DNA of 64,000 bases from Apostichopus japonicus (Eukaryota; Echinodermata; Holothuroidea; Aspidochirotida; Stichopodidae): assembly GCF_037975245.1 (NCBI RefSeq), contig NC_092569.1, forward strand, positions 5,443,501 to 5,507,500, given 5' to 3'. The notes below the pieces were generated by a model. It saw nothing but the letters and a program-made list of their open reading frames with translations, ran no database searches and was not told the DNA's origin. Position numbers and translations under genes: made by a program. Every line of letters begins with the position of its first letter. The first letter of the stretch is position 1. This document shows positions 14,015-64,000 of the stretch, piece after piece.

Positions 14015-17000
14015 AGGTATTAGCATTAGGAAATCGTCCCAACTGGCTGAACCAAACTCACACCTGATGAATATTCAACACTTTATTCAACAATGATAAA
14101 AAAAAGGATTTTGTTTTTGTTAGTATATATTATATAATATCCACTCATAAAGTTTTCGGTCACTAGAAGCGACACTATATATAGAGGTAGTACCGTTAAG
14201 ATACCGGAAACGAATACATTATTTATTGAAACTTGATGAAAAGATGAGGAAAATACTTGCCAGCATCATGACAAACATGCCTGTGACAGTTTAGATAAAA
14301 ACATAACTCTTTACAAAATGGATGCCATGCAGTTATACTATAAACTGTGGACTTCTAAAGGTCTTATTCTACACAGTATTAATATATTTATATCATAGGA
14401 ACGTCTTGCCAACTTTTCGTTATTATTTTGTACGCAATTCGTTTCTATAAATATTGCACGGATCTATAATCTACCCTGGAGGGTAAACAAGAAAATAACA
14501 ACTCACACGGAGAAAAAAAACATATGCAAATTCCTGAAACGGTCGCATTGATTTTTTTCTCTCTGTAATAAATCTCTTTATTAATTATTTCTGTTTTGCT
14601 TTTTGTTTGTGTGTTTGCCTTTTCTCTCTCCCTCTCTCGTTCTTTCTTTTGACCATGCGTGAGGTTCATATAGGACACTATACGCTCAAAATAGTCTAAT
14701 ATCATCAACATTATTAAACTATTTGCGCGCGCGTCTCAATATGCGTATCTCTACATGGGTGTTATTGCTATACATAATGGGTACAGATTTACATGATGAT
14801 TTTAAAACGAATCTTGTTTTAAACAAAAATATAGTATGCAAAAGATGAGAAGAGAAACTATGTCTATTTTATAGGTATAGATTTTTTGGTTAGGTTTTTA
14901 CAGTCCAAGTGTTTTAAAGATGATGTATTCGACCTATTTATAAAATTAATATAATTAAATCTTGGGCATATCAGAGCCTTATATTTGTGTCGAGGTGTAG
15001 GCCTAATTAACCTAGCATCATTCTGTCCAAAGAATTGATAGATAACCGTCAAACCAGAAAATCTTTGTAATTATTATATATACTGCTTGACTACACCAAG
15101 TTGGTGGGCAATGTCACCACCCCCCCCCCTCCCCACCTACCCCTCGTTAAAGCAATGTGTTTCTTATAAGTGTAACGTAAGTCCTTGAAGTGTAACGTTT
15201 AGTTTCATCTTTGCTGATGTGATTTTTTTTGGTGGAGTAGCAGATATATTTTTGATATATTACGTTTTTGATATATTAGCTTTCATGTAAACGATGAAGT
15301 ATCGTATACCAACGCATTATGACAAATTCAACGCGACGTACAACTCTGATACTGTGGGACTCGCTGAGGACCGCAACACGATTGTGTCATAATGATAAAT
15401 CAAAAGTATTTGCCAAATAGTTGAATATTCTCTGATTTTTATCTTTTCAACTCATTTTCGTTTTCATTTATGTAAGTCAAATAGTCACATAACAGAACGA
15501 TTGCGAAATGTTTATTCCGTGACATATTCTTCAGATCACGTGACAAAAGTTTTCCGTTCTAAAATTTTCCAGAGATGCACAAAACGGTGAGCGGGGAAAT
15601 AAAACAGTTCATAATCTATTTATATACAATGTAGAAATACACACAAAAATATATGAATTATTATTTATTTTGCACATAAAATAATAAAGGTAGCTTTAAT
15701 TTATACTTGTCTGTCTGTCTTTTTGCTATTATTGTCTTGTAACCTGTGCATGTTTCAAAATCTTCTACTTTTTCTTCATAATGTTGTTTATTTGGTTATT
15801 TAGCAACATGAAAAGCAAATCTCACACAGGCCGATAAAGTTTCAGGGCTTTTAAGTTGTCACTGAAACAAATAATCAAATGCTATTGAAAACAACCCTTC
15901 AGGGTGAATAATAATGGAATAGTCTAAAGGCTGCACAGTTTGTCACTGTTAGCCTCCTCCCCCCCTCCCCTCCCGAAAAATATGTATGCAAATCCCCTAG
16001 ACGCATTGTCCTTGTACTAAAGCATGGAGATGTGAGATCACTCAAATCCCCTCTCTCACCCCACCTCCACTTGACACCGTCTACTGTATTCCCCATACAA
16101 ATATGATGGTCGCTTTCAACTCCTAACATGATCTTTTCAGTGGAATTATTTGCTCTATGCTCCCCACCTTGACTACGCCACGGATGGCTTGCGTTACGCT
16201 ATAATGTCCACTATAACCCTCGTTATTAACACTCGGTCATACTATTAATCTAAGGGTACCGGGGGCTGGGGTCAGTTTGGCAATACCATCGACATGTCTA
16301 TTCCATTTCGTGAACGTGTTATTTCTGTCAGAAACATATTCCTTTCAACAACAATTTTGGTTTGAACAAGTTTACTCTAAAAGTAATGAATAGTTTCTTC
16401 TTATAGTCTTCATTAGGTCGAGGTTACAGTTGATGCATTCTCATGTTTTAAGAAATGTCACACAAGTTAGAGCCAGGTCGCGAAAACCGATACAAGTTTT
16501 ACTGATATATTCTCGGCACAAGTACCCATTATAAATTGACCATGTGATCATTACTGCAGAATCACGTAAAGAACATATATTACACTCATATTAATCTATA
16601 CCCCATAGGCCGAGAAGCCATCAAGAGACTTCTATTTTACTATGCCATGGCAGTTGGTAATTTGTACACTTTATGTCATTATTATCATTAAAACTTATGT
16701 TACTATACTAGACCAGTGGCGGCCGCAAATGGGGTAGGGGTAACGCGGGGGTTCCGCACCTCATTAGCCAGTCTAGGGGAAAACGCGCAGTCCGGAACAT
16801 TTCGAAATTTATATTCTAAATTTATATTCTAAATTTCTAAAATTCTAAATTTATATTCTAAAATATGCCTCGAAATGCACCATTTGTCCCGTAAACTACT
16901 TCTCTACATAGGAGTCGATTACAACGTCGCCACAACCACACCCTTTATCTCAATTTTCAATGATCCGCTTACAGCCCGTCCATAGAATCTTCATGTCCCT

Positions 17001-54790: not shown

Positions 54791-56659
54791 ATTTCATAGT
54801 TTGAGCGGAGCTTGGTTAGTTTAATAAACTTGGCAATGTAGCAACTTGGCAGGAGCTGATTTATAGGTGTAAACATATGACAATCAGATTATCCTTGTAT
54901 GCTTTGCGTCGTTTTGTTAAACTAAGGTTGTTCTGATATGATTTTTAAAAAAATATTTTTACAGCGTAAAGAAATGCAAACTCCTGCTTAAAGGTCTGCC
55001 ATTCTACACATTGTTGCCAGTTACATATTTCTAAAATGAAACCGATCGCGGTTGTTGAACTATTCTACAATGCTTGTTGCAGTTTTCACGGTCCACCTGT
55101 TGAGTTACACGACACCCTTAGAGGCACTGTTTCAAACAAGGCACTTCTGGCAATGGACAACACCCCCTTTAAAACTTGTGATTTATCCTCATTTTTTCAG
55201 TACTAAATCTTACGGTAAATACACCAAGTATCCTTTAATGCGTCGTAAAAACAATGCAACCGGGTAGAATTTTGACTGAAATATGACAGAAATTAATATA
55301 ACGTAAATATAACGGTACTCAATTTCTGTAATAAATAGACATATTTTTTTCTTAAGTTATCAAAAAAACGACTTGATATTCTCTGATTGGCCGATTCATT
55401 AAATACGTCACTGGGCGATGTTATATTGTCTCGGTCATGCGAGCATGACTTCACAATACCTGTCGAATATTCATGATTGTAAATAAGTTTTATTGTTTAA
55501 CTTAGATCTAACATTACGTATCTCGTCCTCCTGACGCACCGGTATATTAAGCAGGTTCATACTCTAAATATATGGCAGGCGATGAATGTAAACGAACCAT
55601 ATATGGTAACAAATATCTTTATCGCACATTGTTATTTTATGCTTATCCGAGAGTTACGTTCTCTTGAACATTTATAACACATCTGACATCTTATACTGCT
55701 AATCACAAGCTATTTATATATAATTCTTTTGCTGCTTCATCGAAAAATTATACTCCGTATCACAAATTTCTGCCTTCTGCGTTTCCGGTGCGCGAATTCG
55801 TTGGATTTCCCTTTCACGTTTACCTTTGGTCTCAAATACCCTCCCGCCTACCCAAAACAGTCCATCAGTGATTATAAGTTTCACAGTAACATCTTTGCGC
55901 AGTGAATAGCTAAGTTGTCTTCATTTTGGCTGCTGGACTAAAACTAGAACAGAAAACCTGCTGTGGTTTCTTCTCAACGTTTTATGAACTATTTCTAGTA
56001 ACGCGATAAGAAAAGTAAATATAACGTTACTCAATTTTTGTAATAAATAGACATATTTTGGCTTTAGTTATCCAAAAATGACTTGATATTCTCTGATTGG
56101 CCGTTTCGTTAAATACGTCACTGAAAAGTGTATTGTCTCGGTCATGCAAGCATGACTTCTCACAATTCCTCACAACGGAATATTCATGTATGTAAATGAG
56201 AACATTGCGCATCTCGTCCTCCTGACGCACCGGTATATTAAGCAGGTTCATACTCTAAATATATGGCAGGCGATGAATGTAAACGAACCAAATATGGTAA
56301 ATATATGGTAATATGGTAATAATGTAATTTGATGTTTATCCGACTTGCTAATACTGAGGGTCACAATATATTCCTGTTGACTCGAAGGCAAAATAAGCTC
56401 TTCTGCATGATTGCTTTAAAGGTTTAGTTATATCAAAATCGCCAAACCAAACAGGAATGAGTTTGAGTCTCGTCCCGCAGACAGCGTGAACGATTTATAT
56501 TTAGCTCTCCATAAATAGAGGGAGGGCTGGTGGATATGGATGTGAGTAATTCCGGGTAGCAGACAACAATTTTCTGCTTAGAATACTTGTAGGTCCATTG
56601 TTTCCTTCAATTATCACTTTCTGCTCCTCCAGCCAACAGTCACAGCTCACCCCCACCCC

Positions 56660-58824: not shown

Positions 58825-59395
58825 CAGTGGCGTCGCCATACTTTTCAGTATTGGGGAGGGGGGGGGGGCACAGCACTTAATCTTATACTGCTAATCGCAA
58901 GCTATTTATATATCTTTTACTGTTTCATTGAAAAATTATACTCCGTGTCACATAATTCTGCCTTCTGCGTTTCTGTTTAGGGTATTTGGTCTTAAATACC
59001 CTCCCACCTACCCAAACGGTCCATCAATGATTATAAGTGTCACAGTTACATCTTTACGCAGTGAATAGCTAAGTTGTCTTCATTTTGACTGCTGGACTAA
59101 AACTAGTACAGATAATCTGCTGCAGTTTCTCCTCAACGTTTTATGAACTATTTCTAGTAAAGCGATAAGAAAAGTAAATATAACGGTATTCAATTTCTGT
59201 AATAAATAGACATATTTTGGCTTCAGTAATCATAAAAGGACTTGATATTCTCTGATTGGCCGTTTGGTTAAATACGTCACTGAGAAGTGTATTGTCTCGG
59301 TCATGCGAGCATGACTTTTCACAATACTTGTCGTTGCATATTCATGTATGTATATGAGTTTTATTGTAAAACTTAGATCGAACAATGCGCATCTC

Positions 59396-59414
59396 GTCCT
59401 CCTGACGCACCGGT
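59396..59414 (+). promoter_or_regulatory. Conserved PSE-like box, CGTCCTCCTGACGCACCGG
   Basis: This 19-mer is nearly invariant in all six repeat copies (also near 55524, 56216, 60611, 61785 and 62783). It is followed by a TATA-like tract within 40 nt and preceded by an octamer-like TATGTAAAT about 60 nt upstream. The layout resembles snRNA gene promoters, but no true snRNA follows in copies 1, 2 and 6. Function is inference. Confidence 0.3.
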
Positions 59415-59437
59415 ACTGATATAAAGCCGGTAAATAC

Positions 59438-59610
59438 TGTTATATATAGCCTTTTGGCTAAGATCATGTGTAGTATCTGTTCTCTTTCGAGGGGAATGGT
59501 GATGCACACCGACGGATCAGTCGTTCGGTAGTTTGGTAGTTTTCGTGTTTTGGTACTTTTCGGTAGTTTTCGTGCCCAGATTCTTTCCAGGGCGACTTTT
59601 TCTTAAAAAG
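59438..59610 (+). mobile_element. U2-headed module, 5'-truncated, copy A1
   Basis: CCTTTTGGCTAAGATCATGT continues GTAGTATCTGTTC, matching U2 snRNA from about nucleotide 13 to 45, including the GUAGUA branch-site-pairing element. It lacks the first 11 or so nucleotides. The body is shared with the full modules (GGATCAGTCGTTCGGTAGTT, GTGCCCAG...) and it ends CTTAAAAAG. TATATAG occurs on both sides, fitting a short target duplication. A1 has extra TTTTGGTA/TTTCGGTA repeats. Confidence 0.6.
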
Positions 59611-59650
59611 TATATAGCAGGCGATATATGTCAACGAACCATATATGGTA

Positions 59651-59846
59651 AAAATCGCTTCTCGACCTTTTGGCTAAGATCATGTGTAGTATCTGTTCCC
59701 TTTCGAAGGGAATTGTGATACACACCTGACGTTGATCACACAGTCACAGTCTCGATGCAAGGGGACTGGGGTTGAGAGCGGATCAGTCGTTCGGTAGTTT
59801 GGTTTTCGTGCCCAGGTTATTTCCTGGGTGACTTTTCTTAAAAAGC
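59651..59846 (+). mobile_element. U2-headed SINE-like module, full length, copy B1
   Basis: Starts ATCGCTTCTCGACCTTTTGG at 59654, then CTAAGATCATGTGTAGTATC and TGTTC: the first 45 nt of U2 snRNA with two or three changes. After that it departs wholly from U2. Body: hairpin CCCTTTCGAAGGG, then GTGATACACACC, GGATCAGTCGTTCGGTAG, hairpin CCCAGGTTATTTCCTGGG and end CTTAAAAAG. No clear Sm site. Flanked by a 13-bp direct repeat, ACCATATATGGTA (59638-59650 and 59847-59859), which is single in the uninserted copy at 55600. This is the pattern of a retroposed SINE. Confidence 0.65.
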
Positions 59847-60648
59847 ACCATATATGGTATTAAATATCTTCATCGCACATTGTTATGATATGCTTATCCT
59901 ATAGTTACATTTTTGTTGAACTTTTACAACTCATTTAACATCTAACCCTGCCTTCTGCGTTTCCGTTCCGCGAATTCGTTGGATTTACCTTTCATATATA
60001 CATTCGGTTTTAAACAGTGGCGTCGCCAGGCATTACAATATTTGGGGGGGGGGGGGGCCAGTATTTAATCTCATACTGCTAATCGCAAGCTATTTATATA
60101 TCTTTTACTGCTTCATCGAAAAATTATACTCCGTGTCGCGTATTTCTGCTTCTGCGTTTCTATTCAGGGAATTCGATGGATTTCCTTTCACGTTTAGCTT
60201 CGGTCTTAAATACCCTCCCGCCTACCCAAAACAGTCCATCAGTGATTATAAGTTTCACAGTTACATCTTTACGCAGTGAATAGCTAAGATGTCTTCATTT
60301 TGGCTGCTGGACTAAAACTAGAACAGATAACCTGCTGTGGTTTCTTCTCAACGTTTTATGAACTATTTCTAGTAAAGCGATAAGAAAAGTAAATATAACG
60401 TTACTCAATTTCTGTAATAAATAGACATATTTTGGCTTTAGTTATCCAAAAATGACTTGATATTCTTTGATTGGCCGTTTGGTTAAATACGTCACTGAGA
60501 AGTGTATTGTCTCGGTCATGCGAGCATGACTTTTCACAATACCTGATGTTGCATATTCATGTATGTAAATGAGTTTTATTGTAAAACTTAGATTGAATGT
60601 TGCGCATCTCGTCCTCCTGACGCACCGGTATATAATGCCGGTAAATGC

Positions 60649-60793
60649 TGTTATATATAGCCTTTTTGACTAAGATCATGTGTAGTATCTGCTCCCTTTC
60701 GAGGGGAATGGTGATGCACACCCGACGGATCAGTCGTTCGGTAGTTTGGTTTTCGTGCCCAGGTTCTTTCCAGGGCGACTTTTTCTTAAAAAG
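60649..60793 (+). mobile_element. U2-headed module, 5'-truncated, copy A2
   Basis: Same as copy A1 without its extra internal repeats. It reads GCCTTTTTGACTAAGATCAT, so the U2 stem I loop has mutated. Ends CTTAAAAAG and is followed by TATATAG. Confidence 0.6.
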
Positions 60794-60833
60794 TATATAG
60801 CAGGCGATATATGTCAACGAACCATATATGGTA

Positions 60834-61021
60834 AAAATCGCTTCTCGACCTTTTGGCTAAGATCATGTGTAGTATCTGTTCCAGGAATTGTGATACACAC
60901 CTGACGATGATCACACGGTCACAGTCTCGATGCAAGGGGACTGGGACAGAGAGCGGATCAGTCGTTCGGTAGTTTGGTTTTCGTGCCCAGGTTATTTCCT
61001 GGGTCACTTTTCTTAAAAAGC
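60834..61021 (+). mobile_element. U2-headed SINE-like module, full length, copy B2
   Basis: Starts ATCGCTTCTCG at 60837. It lacks most of the CCCTTTCGAAGGG hairpin (reads GTTCCAGGAATTG). Flanked by ACCATATATGGTA at 60821-60833 and 61022-61034. Confidence 0.65.
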
Positions 61022-61823
61022 ACCATATATGGTATTAAATATCTTCATCGCATATTGTTATGATATGCTTATCCTATAGTTACATTTCTGTTAAACGTTT
61101 ACAACACATTTGACATCTTACCCTGCCTTCTGCGTTTCCGTTCCGCGAATTCGTTGGATTTACCTTTCATATTTACATTCGGTTTTAAACAGTGGCGTCG
61201 CCAGGCATTTCAATATTGGGGGGGGGGGGGCACAGTATTTAATCTTATACTGCTAATCGCAAGCTATTTATATATCTTTTACTGCTTCATTGAAAAATTA
61301 TACTCCGTGTCACATATTTCTGCTTCTGCGTTTCTGTTCAGGGAATTCGATGGATTTCGCTTTCACATTTAACTTTGGTCCTCAATACCCTCCCACCTTC
61401 CCAAAACAGTCCATCAGTGATGATAAGTTTCACAGTAACATCTTTACGCAGTGAATAGCTAAGATGTCTTCATTTTGACTGCTGGACTAAAACTAGAACA
61501 GATAACCTGCTGTGGTTTCTTCTCAACGTTTTATGAACTATTTCTAGTAAAGCGATAAGAAAAGTAAATATAACGTTACTCAATTTCTGTAATAAATAGA
61601 CATATTTTGGCTTTAGTTTTCCAAAAATGACTTGATATTCTTTGATTGGCCGTTTGGTTAAATACGTCACTGAGAAGTGTTTTGTCTCGGTCATGCGAGC
61701 ACGACTTTTCACAATACCTGATGTTGCATATTCATGTATGTAAATGAGTTTGATTGTAAAACTTAGATTGAATATTGCGCATCTCGTCCTCCTGACGCAC
61801 CGGTATATAATGCCGGTAAATAC

Positions 61824-61969
61824 TGTTATATATAGCCTTTTTTGACTAAGATCATGTGTAGTATCTGCTCCCTTTCGAGTGGAATGGTGATGCACACCCG
61901 ACGGATCAGTCGTTCGGTAGTGTGGTTTTCGTGCCCAGGTTCTTTCCTGGGCGTTTTCTTCTTAAAAAG
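61824..61969 (+). mobile_element. U2-headed module, 5'-truncated, copy A3
   Basis: Like copy A2. Its 3' hairpin is perfect here (GCCCAGGTTCTTTCCTGGGC), whereas A1 and A2 have a mismatch. Ends CTTAAAAAG before TATATAG. Confidence 0.6.
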
Positions 61970-62009
61970 TATATAGCTGGCGATAGATGTAAACGAACCA
62001 TATATGGTA

Positions 62010-62204
62010 AAATCGCTTCTCGACCTTTTGGCTAAGATCATGGGTAGTATCTGTTCCCCTTCGAGGGGAATTTGTGATACACACCTGACGATGATCACAC
62101 ATTCACAGTCTCGATTCAAGGGGACTGGGGTTGAGAGCGGATCAGTCGCAGGTAGTTTGGTTTTCGTGCCCAGGTTATTTCCTGGGTGACTTTTCTTAAA
62201 AAGC
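62010..62204 (+). mobile_element. U2-headed SINE-like module, full length, copy B3
   Basis: Starts ATCGCTTCTCG at 62012. The internal hairpin reads CCCCTTCGAGGGG. Flanked by ACCATATATGGTA at 61997-62009 and 62205-62217. The array then ends with an uninserted promoter-like copy at about 62550. Confidence 0.65.
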
Positions 62205-63163
62205 ACCATATATGGTAATATAATATCTTCATCACACATTGTTATTATATGCTTATCCTATAGTTTATCCGATAGTTACATTTCTGTTGAACGTTAACAA
62301 TACATCTGACATCTTATACTTCTGCGTTTCCGTTCCGCGAATTCGATGGATTTCGCTTTCACATTTACCTTCGGTCTTAAATACCCTCCCGCCTACCCAA
62401 AACAGTCCATCAGTGATTATAAGTTTCACAGTAACATCTTTACGCAGTGAATAGCTAAGATGTCTTCATTTTGACTGCTGGACTAAAACTAGAACAAATA
62501 ACCTGCTGTAGTTTCTTCTCAACGTTTTATGAACTATTTCTAGTAACGCGATAAGAAAAGTAAATATAACGTTACCTAATTTCTGTAATAAATAGACATA
62601 TTTTGGCTTCAGTAATCATAAAAGGACTTGATATTCTCTGATTGGCCGATTTGTTAAATACGTCACTGGGCATTGTCGAATTGTCGCGGTCATGCAAACA
62701 TGACTTTTCACAAAACGTATCGTTGAATATTCATGTATGTAAATAAGTTTTATTGTTAAACTGATATCAAACATCGCGTATCTCGTCCTCCTGACGCACC
62801 GGTATATTAAGCCGGTTCATACTCTAAATATATGGCAGGCGATGAATGTAAACGAACCAAATATGGTAAATATATGGTGTATAATATAATTTGATGTTTA
62901 TACGACTTGATAATAGTTTTCCGTATAGTTTACTGAGGGTCACAAAGTACTCTTGTTTGAATCGAAGGCTAAAACAGCGCTTCTGCATGATTGCTTTATT
63001 TTTATCTCTCCATAAATAGAGGGAGGGCTGGTGGATATGGACGGTGAGTAATATCGGGAGCAGACAACAATTTTCTGTTTAGAATACTTGTAGGTCCATT
63101 GTTTCCTTCAATTATCACTTTGCTTCTCCAGACAACAGTCACATTACTGAATACGAATCTAAA

Positions 63164-63692
63164 CAGTGGCGTCGCCAGACATTTCAATATTGGGGGGGGG
63201 GGGGGGGGCACAACGCTTAATTAGGGGGCACAATGTTATTTGTGGATGCCGTCCTGGGGGAGGGGTCTGATTAATAAAGGGTCCCTATGCAATCTGGTGC
63301 TATATTTTGCAACTTGAAGTAATTTAATGTCCAAGACTTTTTGGGCTTAGTCTGTCCGGTATTTATGTTTTTAATTGAGGCGGATAAAACATTAATACAA
63401 TGAATGAAAATTAACCCTTTTGCTTTGATGTTTTTAAATAATTAAGTTAATGGTCATAAGATGCAATTTGGTGCTATCTGGTGATTATCCATTATGAGTG
63501 AACAAAAAGATGTTTTCCGCTTGAATAGTTGGGCGGAAAGAAGTTTTACAGATGAAAATAATACGTTTCGTCCCTTGTAATAAAAGTTTTTGATTGAGTA
63601 TTTTGTTAGCACTACAAATCGGGGGAGGGGCGATCGTTTTTGGGATGGCACGTGCCCCCCCCCCCTCAGGAGACCCCTTGGCGGCGCCACTG
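63164..63692. mobile_element. hAT-like non-autonomous element, third family (529 bp)
   Basis: The ends are CAGTGGCGTCGCCAGAC and, inverted, CAGTGGCGCCGCCAAGG, each followed inward by a poly-G run. The 8-bp flanks are AATCTAAA and AGTCTAAA (one mismatch). CAGTGGCGTCGCCA also begins the units at 58825, 60015 and 61190, where only the left end is present. No ORF inside looks coding. Confidence 0.7.
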
Positions 63693-64000
63693 AGTCTAAA
63701 TGACATTGTGAAATATTTTCACAACTTCGCCAAAGCAAGTCACCTAGTATACATCATATTGAAAACGGCCAATTTTTGAGTCCATTTGAGTCTTGAGATA
63801 TCCTGTTGATGAAGCTCAGAGGCCTGCTGGGTGACTAAAAGTGAGTGTGCTAAAAATTGTCAACAGACTGAAGCACGTTTCATTTCCTAGATGACTGTAT
63901 GTTTTGTTGAAGACTGTTGTTGTTGCAACTGTTTGTTGAAGACTGAACTGAATTTGACCAAACTATGTTCACCAAAGAAAATCTTAGCATTGGAGAATTC
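63693..64000. other. End of window, nothing recognised
   Basis: No ORF, repeat or splice-bounded exon was recognised. Short GTTGAAGACTG direct repeats occur near 63905-63945. Confidence 0.5.

Follow-up and report, generated by a model that had tools for sequence, protein, structure and literature searches.

A U2-headed SINE of Apostichopus japonicus that resides in U2 snRNA genes and may owe its head to the U2 promoter

SINEs with snRNA heads were reportedly described by Kojima in 2015 under the name SINEU. Those of crocodilians are said to carry U1 or U2 heads, to prefer a Mariner transposon and to be tied to Tx1-Mar LINEs. Such elements are puzzling, since no internal promoter is evident in a U2 head. 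An internal Pol III promoter is typical of SINEs, although not universal. SINEU is listed as a Repbase class (PMC5753468), and Kojima 2015 is cited in PMC4640811 among others. Other retroelements are linked to snRNA or rRNA genes. For instance, two LINEs that are both inserted in U2 genes, the APE-type Keno and the RLE-type Utopia, share 3' flanking U2 sequence (PMC4640811), and R2 is co-transcribed with the 28S rRNA from its host gene (PMC12192640). Furthermore, U6/LINE-1 chimeras carry snRNA sequence at the 5' end of the retrotransposed unit (PMC13174262). SINEs have been annotated as 0.02% of the genome of Apostichopus japonicus (PMC10344927).

The window, i.e. the whole stretch of DNA that was analysed, comprises 64 kb (G000:C9:5443501-5507500) of an assembly of 671,581,487 bp in 35 contigs, and all genome-wide searches covered that assembly. 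It contains two separate retroposon insertions, B (59654) and A (59450), each present in triplicate via a 1.18-kb tandem repeat. The features of the window are the following:

58860..62381, plus strand: three tandem host repeats of ~1.18 kb bearing the A and B insertions
59654..59846, plus strand: SINE copy B1, with the U2 nt 1-45 head at 59654-59698, then body and tail ending AAAAAGC
59638..59650, plus strand: 5' target duplication of B1, ACCATATATGGTA
59847..59859, plus strand: 3' target duplication of B1, ACCATATATGGTA
60837..61021, plus strand: SINE copy B2, apparent tandem duplicate of B1
60821..60833, plus strand: 5' target duplication of B2, read in the sequence
61022..61034, plus strand: 3' target duplication of B2, read in the sequence
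62012..62204, plus strand: SINE copy B3, apparent tandem duplicate of B1
61997..62009, plus strand: 5' target duplication of B3, read in the sequence
62205..62217, plus strand: 3' target duplication of B3, read in the sequence
59450..59611, plus strand: SINE copy A1, from the other insertion, starting at U2 nt 13 by 5' truncation and without a central segment of the B type, with a short TATATAG duplication
60661..60794, plus strand: SINE copy A2, apparent tandem duplicate of A1
61836..61970, plus strand: SINE copy A3, apparent tandem duplicate of A1
16439..16621, minus strand: old diverged copy of the same SINE, ~80% identical to the consensus
55585..55635, plus strand: uninserted sister site for B, with a single ACCATATATGGTA
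55533..55600, plus strand: uninserted sister site for A
56224..56325, plus strand: second sister of the host repeat, without insertion
62791..62895, plus strand: third sister of the host repeat, without insertion

The B modules, which start at 59654, 60837 and 62012, match nt 1-45 of the U2 of their own genome at 44, 44 and 43 of the 45 positions, respectively. This bears out an earlier note on this DNA, which had read in it three modules starting at U2 nt 1 and matching its first 45 nt. As the note had also stated, the 13-mer ACCATATATGGTA stands on both sides of every B module and only once at the empty sister site around 55.6 kb. The three modules are real, but they look like the products of a single insertion followed by tandem duplication, since they lie within three tandem repeats and are about as diverged as the host repeat itself (pairwise similarity of 95.6-96.8% for the B modules, 91-95.5% for the A modules and 85.7-97.8% for stretches of the host repeat). 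The note had overlooked the second module (A) of each 1.18-kb repeat, which is 5'-truncated near U2 nt 13-15 and has uninserted counterparts at 55.5, 56.2 and 62.8 kb. An old copy is also present on the minus strand (16621-16439; nhmmer E-value of 3e-5). The TATATAG duplication of the A module is short and weak by itself.

According to the note, its reading would not hold if the modules were ordinary divergent U2 genes. With the Rfam U2 model, they score 48.1 bits (59654), 47.4 bits (60837) and 43.3 bits (62012) for a cut-off of 46 bits, B1 and B2 thus being barely above it and B3 below, and the good alignment is restricted to the 45 nt of the 5' end instead of extending over the full length. 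Since genuine U2 sequences of the same genome score 181.8-186.8 bits (46 matches listed), these scores, together with a fit limited to the 5' part, rule out a divergent U2 gene.

Another element of the window (63160-63693) reads CAGTGGCGTCGCCA ... TGGCGGCGCCACTG and has the flanks AATCTAAA/AGTCTAAA, with an 8-bp duplication judged by eye. Its left end is found again in the 1.18-kb repeats. It resembles a MITE of the hAT type.

Genome-wide, the modules belong to a dispersed SINE family of ~190 bp. The search with the B module provided 2943 first-look candidates, 40 of which were scored, and the 37 scored places located outside the window were used to build a consensus of 194 nt. The head of this consensus is identical to nt 1-45 of the U2 of the same genome (45/45), and clear identity ends at nt 45, confirming the abrupt change to an unrelated body that had been described in the window. 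The 37 copies are 93-99% identical to the consensus, a range that is not an unbiased measure of age, these copies being the best matches by selection. A 55-nt pattern from the 3' end occurs, with at most three mismatches, at 707 places in the genome, compared with none for the reversed pattern used as a control. A scan of viral contigs with the exact U2-head/body pattern gave no match. About 25 of the 125 places of two young stem-variant patterns are found on C17, at ~17-25 Mb.

Target duplications were sought in 40 copies, hand-picked on contigs C1 to C9 among the exact 3'-end matches listed. Duplications scoring at least 8 (8-23 bp) flank 34 of them, versus 35 of 1560 mismatched flank pairs. 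They are still present in 29 of 35 copies once five doubtful cases are dropped, namely L126, where the head of the following SINE had been counted as a duplication, L094, L102 and L132, which involve AT repeats, and L118, which repeats L117. In the 37-copy set, 17 copies have a duplication, versus 0.7% of the mismatched pairs. The most common 5' start in the 40-copy sample is U2 nt 1 (13 copies), the others ranging from nt 2 to nt 78. The fixed 3' end is built into this sample, which was chosen by one 3' end; the 37 copies, chosen otherwise, end mostly in AAAAAG. Together, the two sets display the fixed 3' end and variable 5' truncation of a SINE. Private target duplications and variable 5' starts are the marks expected of target-primed retroposition, and dispersal with private duplications confirms that the modules belong to a SINE, i.e. 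a short non-autonomous retroposon. Hence, the window and the dispersed copies together support the reading of the earlier note, i.e. a retroposon with a U2 head, duplicated targets and uninserted sites. The variable flanks of these copies refute a confinement to the 1.18-kb repeat, and a reading as satellite or segmental duplication only is ruled out by their dispersal.

The family is also found in the genes from which its head could derive. The U2 genes of this genome form a 645-bp tandem array on C16 and occupy four places on C15. Pattern searches indicate that 60 U2 sites keep the target and that 27, all on C16, are interrupted by a SINE or a LINE. These 27 interrupted genes were read in part, and a SINE tail ends the interruption in six of them: three harbor an untruncated single copy and one a tandem pair with a shortened first unit, and the remaining two have a truncated copy, located in one case behind a LINE end. 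In the array residents, U2 nt 1-45 are directly joined to the SINE body, which is followed by U2 from nt 35 to nt 192; the U2 sequence resumes at nt 38 instead of nt 35 if the terminal AGT is assigned to the element. The sequence of the array unit that precedes the residents is intact (99.7% identity over ~300-345 nt). The alternative raised in the earlier note, a U2 relic fused to another RNA, comes near the origin proposed below, the body being found within U2 genes.

One of these residents (C16:31132307) is wholly contained, as 190 identical nt, in four dispersed copies out of the 40 that were sampled (L107, L120, L128 and L132). Flanks and duplications differ between these four. The stem variant of this resident occurs at 59 places in the genome, i.e. 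the resident itself and 58 others, and the CCCYTCGGG stem variants were located at 66 places, among which are one resident and eight places in a U4 array of C18. The other two untruncated residents are contained in none of the 40 sampled copies. Of the two young stem variants that predominate, CCCTTCGGG was not seen in any of the three single residents that are untruncated. The U2 1-53 resident, which is truncated, matches nothing else in the genome and hence has no dispersed daughter. As far as can be judged from the sequences, the identity between a resident and dispersed copies shows kinship and not direction.

Two other associations with snRNA-related sequences were observed. In a diverged U2-like copy (~90%; L069, G000:C20:14906449), the SINE retains most of its own head, the U2 5' sequence being therefore present twice, and is followed by U2 nt 35-192. 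Moreover, U4-like snRNA sequences that form a 1.86-kb tandem array on C18 (L147 and L148; G000:C18, ~9.489-9.508 Mb) carry a SINE of this family. The SINE is inserted at TTTA|TCCGAGACG, a U2-like site, and is nearly full length in L148 and 5'-shortened in three units of L147.

Within U2, the nick lies between nt 37 and nt 38 (AGT|ATCTG). The unoccupied targets of 32 distinct dispersed copies were reconstructed from the 5' duplication, and the eight bases past the nick match those of U2 (ATCTGTTC) at 3.9 of 8 positions, versus 2.17 for the flanking background. An A is found at +1 in 25 of the 32 targets, a C at +3 in 22, and TCT at +2 to +4 in nine, versus 1.7% in the background. Removal of the doubtful copies gives 3.83 versus 2.16 (n=29), a value reached by none of 10000 background resamplings, and the corresponding values for another set, of 14 copies, are 3.36 versus 2.14. 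Some shuffled versions of the U2 8-mer fit the targets equally well (11 of 2000 before the removals, 25 of 2000 after), which counts against a target reading specific for U2. These comparisons indicate that dispersed insertions prefer U2-like sites. No base preference was detected upstream of the nick in the 32 copies; the GT preceding it therefore comes from the element, as would be the case for a template RNA that continued into the AGT of U2.

In L072 and L062, young SINEs are inserted at nt 37|38 of the head of an older copy, and heads of older copies thus also serve as insertion sites. The younger and older units are respectively 98.9% and 78.4% identical to the reference unit in L072, and 100% and 92.4% in L062. 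Head-to-tail SINE pairs linked by U2 nt 35-45 were found in five loci (L072, L062, L077, L075 and L076), the upstream unit being much younger in the first two. Such dispersed dimers were considered as a proof of a source residing in U2 genes, but this argument is weakened, since they may also arise by insertion of a young element into an old head, which is clear in L072 and L062, or by template jumping at AGTA.

LINEs of ~5 kb are integrated at the same U2 site as the SINE in the C16 array (L058, L059 and L060). Both LINEs that were read (L058 and L060) have long and open ORF1 and ORF2. ORF1 encodes a CCHC knuckle and ORF2 an APE endonuclease, a reverse transcriptase (RT) and a zf-RVT domain, the latter being below its cut-off in L058. 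The PF03372 and RVT_1 domains found in ORF2 of both elements point to APE rather than RLE. In the insertions read, the 3' junction is located at U2 nt 35/38, as in Keno. U2 35/38-50 is present on both flanks of L060, and U2 31-37 is lacking in L058 and L059. Since PMC4640811 describes shared 3' flanking U2 sequence for Keno and Utopia, and since the LINEs found here have an APE domain, they appear Keno-like by target and by domain; this domain argues against their being Utopia elements. Comparison of the SINE tail with 3' ends of U2-inserted LINEs (3 + 11 ends tested) revealed no likeness beyond an A-rich end and AGT, with scores no better than those of shuffles. No tail is thus common to the SINE and the LINE ends tested, and a helper role of these LINEs is putative. 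From the common target and the U2-like dispersed sites, Keno-like APE LINEs would be the leading helper candidates.

In comparison with shuffled sequences, no Pol III A or B box better than chance was found in the SINE. The lack of an internal Pol III promoter is expected if the head derives from U2, and the SINE probably borrows the start signal of the U2 gene. We therefore propose, with a probability of roughly 0.7, that this element is a SINE of the SINEU type with U2 genes as its target, and that its head is acquired through transcription starting at the U2 promoter. It would insert preferentially into U2 genes, following a nick between nt 37 and nt 38, and the lodged copy would then sit behind the U2 promoter. 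Transcription initiated at nt 1 of U2 would generate an RNA consisting of U2 nt 1-45, the body and the tail and extending into AGT, the residents being the presumed source. Reverse transcription of this RNA at other, U2-like sites, using LINE proteins that may be provided in trans by Keno-like APE LINEs of the same U2 site, would lead to dispersed U2-headed copies. Landing in another U2 gene, or in the U2 head of an older SINE, could restore the body directly behind U2 1-45.

These steps might constitute a self-restoring promoter cycle, for and against which we would give even odds: an expression site would be kept in the array of a spliceosomal RNA, and the genome would be seeded from it. The U2 head would then record the origin of the element, i.e. 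a transcript begun in a U2 gene. As the nick lies inside the head, the head would match the target and older copies would serve as landing sites, and head homology would rejoin the body behind U2 1-45 upon landing in a U2 gene. If such a cycle exists, it can be viewed as a general route to the origin of snRNA-headed SINEs.

Another origin of the head, which we consider improbable although worth weighing, is a single capture by template switching or RNA ligation, as proposed for the U6/L1 chimeras. The SINE would then be transcribed elsewhere, and the copies found in U2 genes would be mere landings made seamless by head homology. Homology between head and target would give the same junction, but no alternative promoter is seen in the sequence. 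Template switching and RNA ligation are both discussed for U6/LINE-1 in PMC13174262. In L069, the SINE keeps its own head beside another U2 5' piece and is followed by U2 nt 35-192; it thus seems that headed SINE RNA can land in U2 together with this head, and residents might therefore be products and not sources. The truncated U2 1-53 resident without daughters would also fit a single capture, whereas the most common 5' end, which is exactly the U2 start (13/40), and the resident identical to dispersed copies argue for transcription from U2 genes.

A conventional SINE transcribed from an internal Pol III promoter within the U2 head is far less credible. The head includes an A-box-like sequence, TGGCTAAGATC, at nt 18, with one mismatch to the box consensus, but 244 of 300 shuffles contain an A box just as good; for the short B box, the best match has two mismatches and is equalled in 299 of 300 shuffles, and TTTT occurs at nt 15. 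Such a promoter therefore appears unlikely. Finally, a non-mobile sequence, either a diverged gene for U2 or a satellite present solely in the 1.18-kb repeat, can be practically dismissed: three copies do lie within a tandem repeat and U2 covariance matches in the window just exceed the cut-off, but hundreds of copies are dispersed, most of those sampled having private target duplications, and genuine U2 genes reach 181.8-186.8 bits.

U2-headed SINEs are known as a class. What is new here is this family, along with information on where its head may come from. The new family suspected in the earlier note is therefore retained, within a class, SINEU, that is already known. Among the matches listed in a literature search, which considered titles and abstract beginnings and lay mostly outside the subscription literature, no report was found of a SINE inside the snRNA gene that supplies its head. 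Acquisition of a head from U2 genes is directly testable in this species, since the residents of the donor genes, the LINEs that live with them, the dispersed copies and the insertion sites are all accessible in a single genome, and so is the origin of the promoter. Moreover, U2 and U4 snRNA arrays act as hosts for small parasites.

Like SINEU, the element described here is a short retroposon headed by sequence of an snRNA gene; the head of its consensus is identical to U2 at 45 of 45 positions. Unlike crocodilian SINEU, which are said to prefer a Mariner transposon, it resides in the very gene family, U2, that provides this head. It shares the U2 target region of Keno and Utopia, and the LINEs present at this site have an APE domain as in Keno; in contrast to these two LINEs, it is only ~190 bp long and its 3' end matches that of no tested U2-inserted LINE. 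R2, located in 28S genes, provides a functional model for promoter borrowing. However, the gene, the polymerase and the endonuclease type are different, and here the borrowed host sequence remains on dispersed copies as their head. Like U6/LINE-1 chimeras, the element carries 5' snRNA sequence on a retrotransposed unit; whereas a full-length snRNA was joined in separate events in those chimeras, one fixed chimera has been propagated hundreds of times in A. japonicus.
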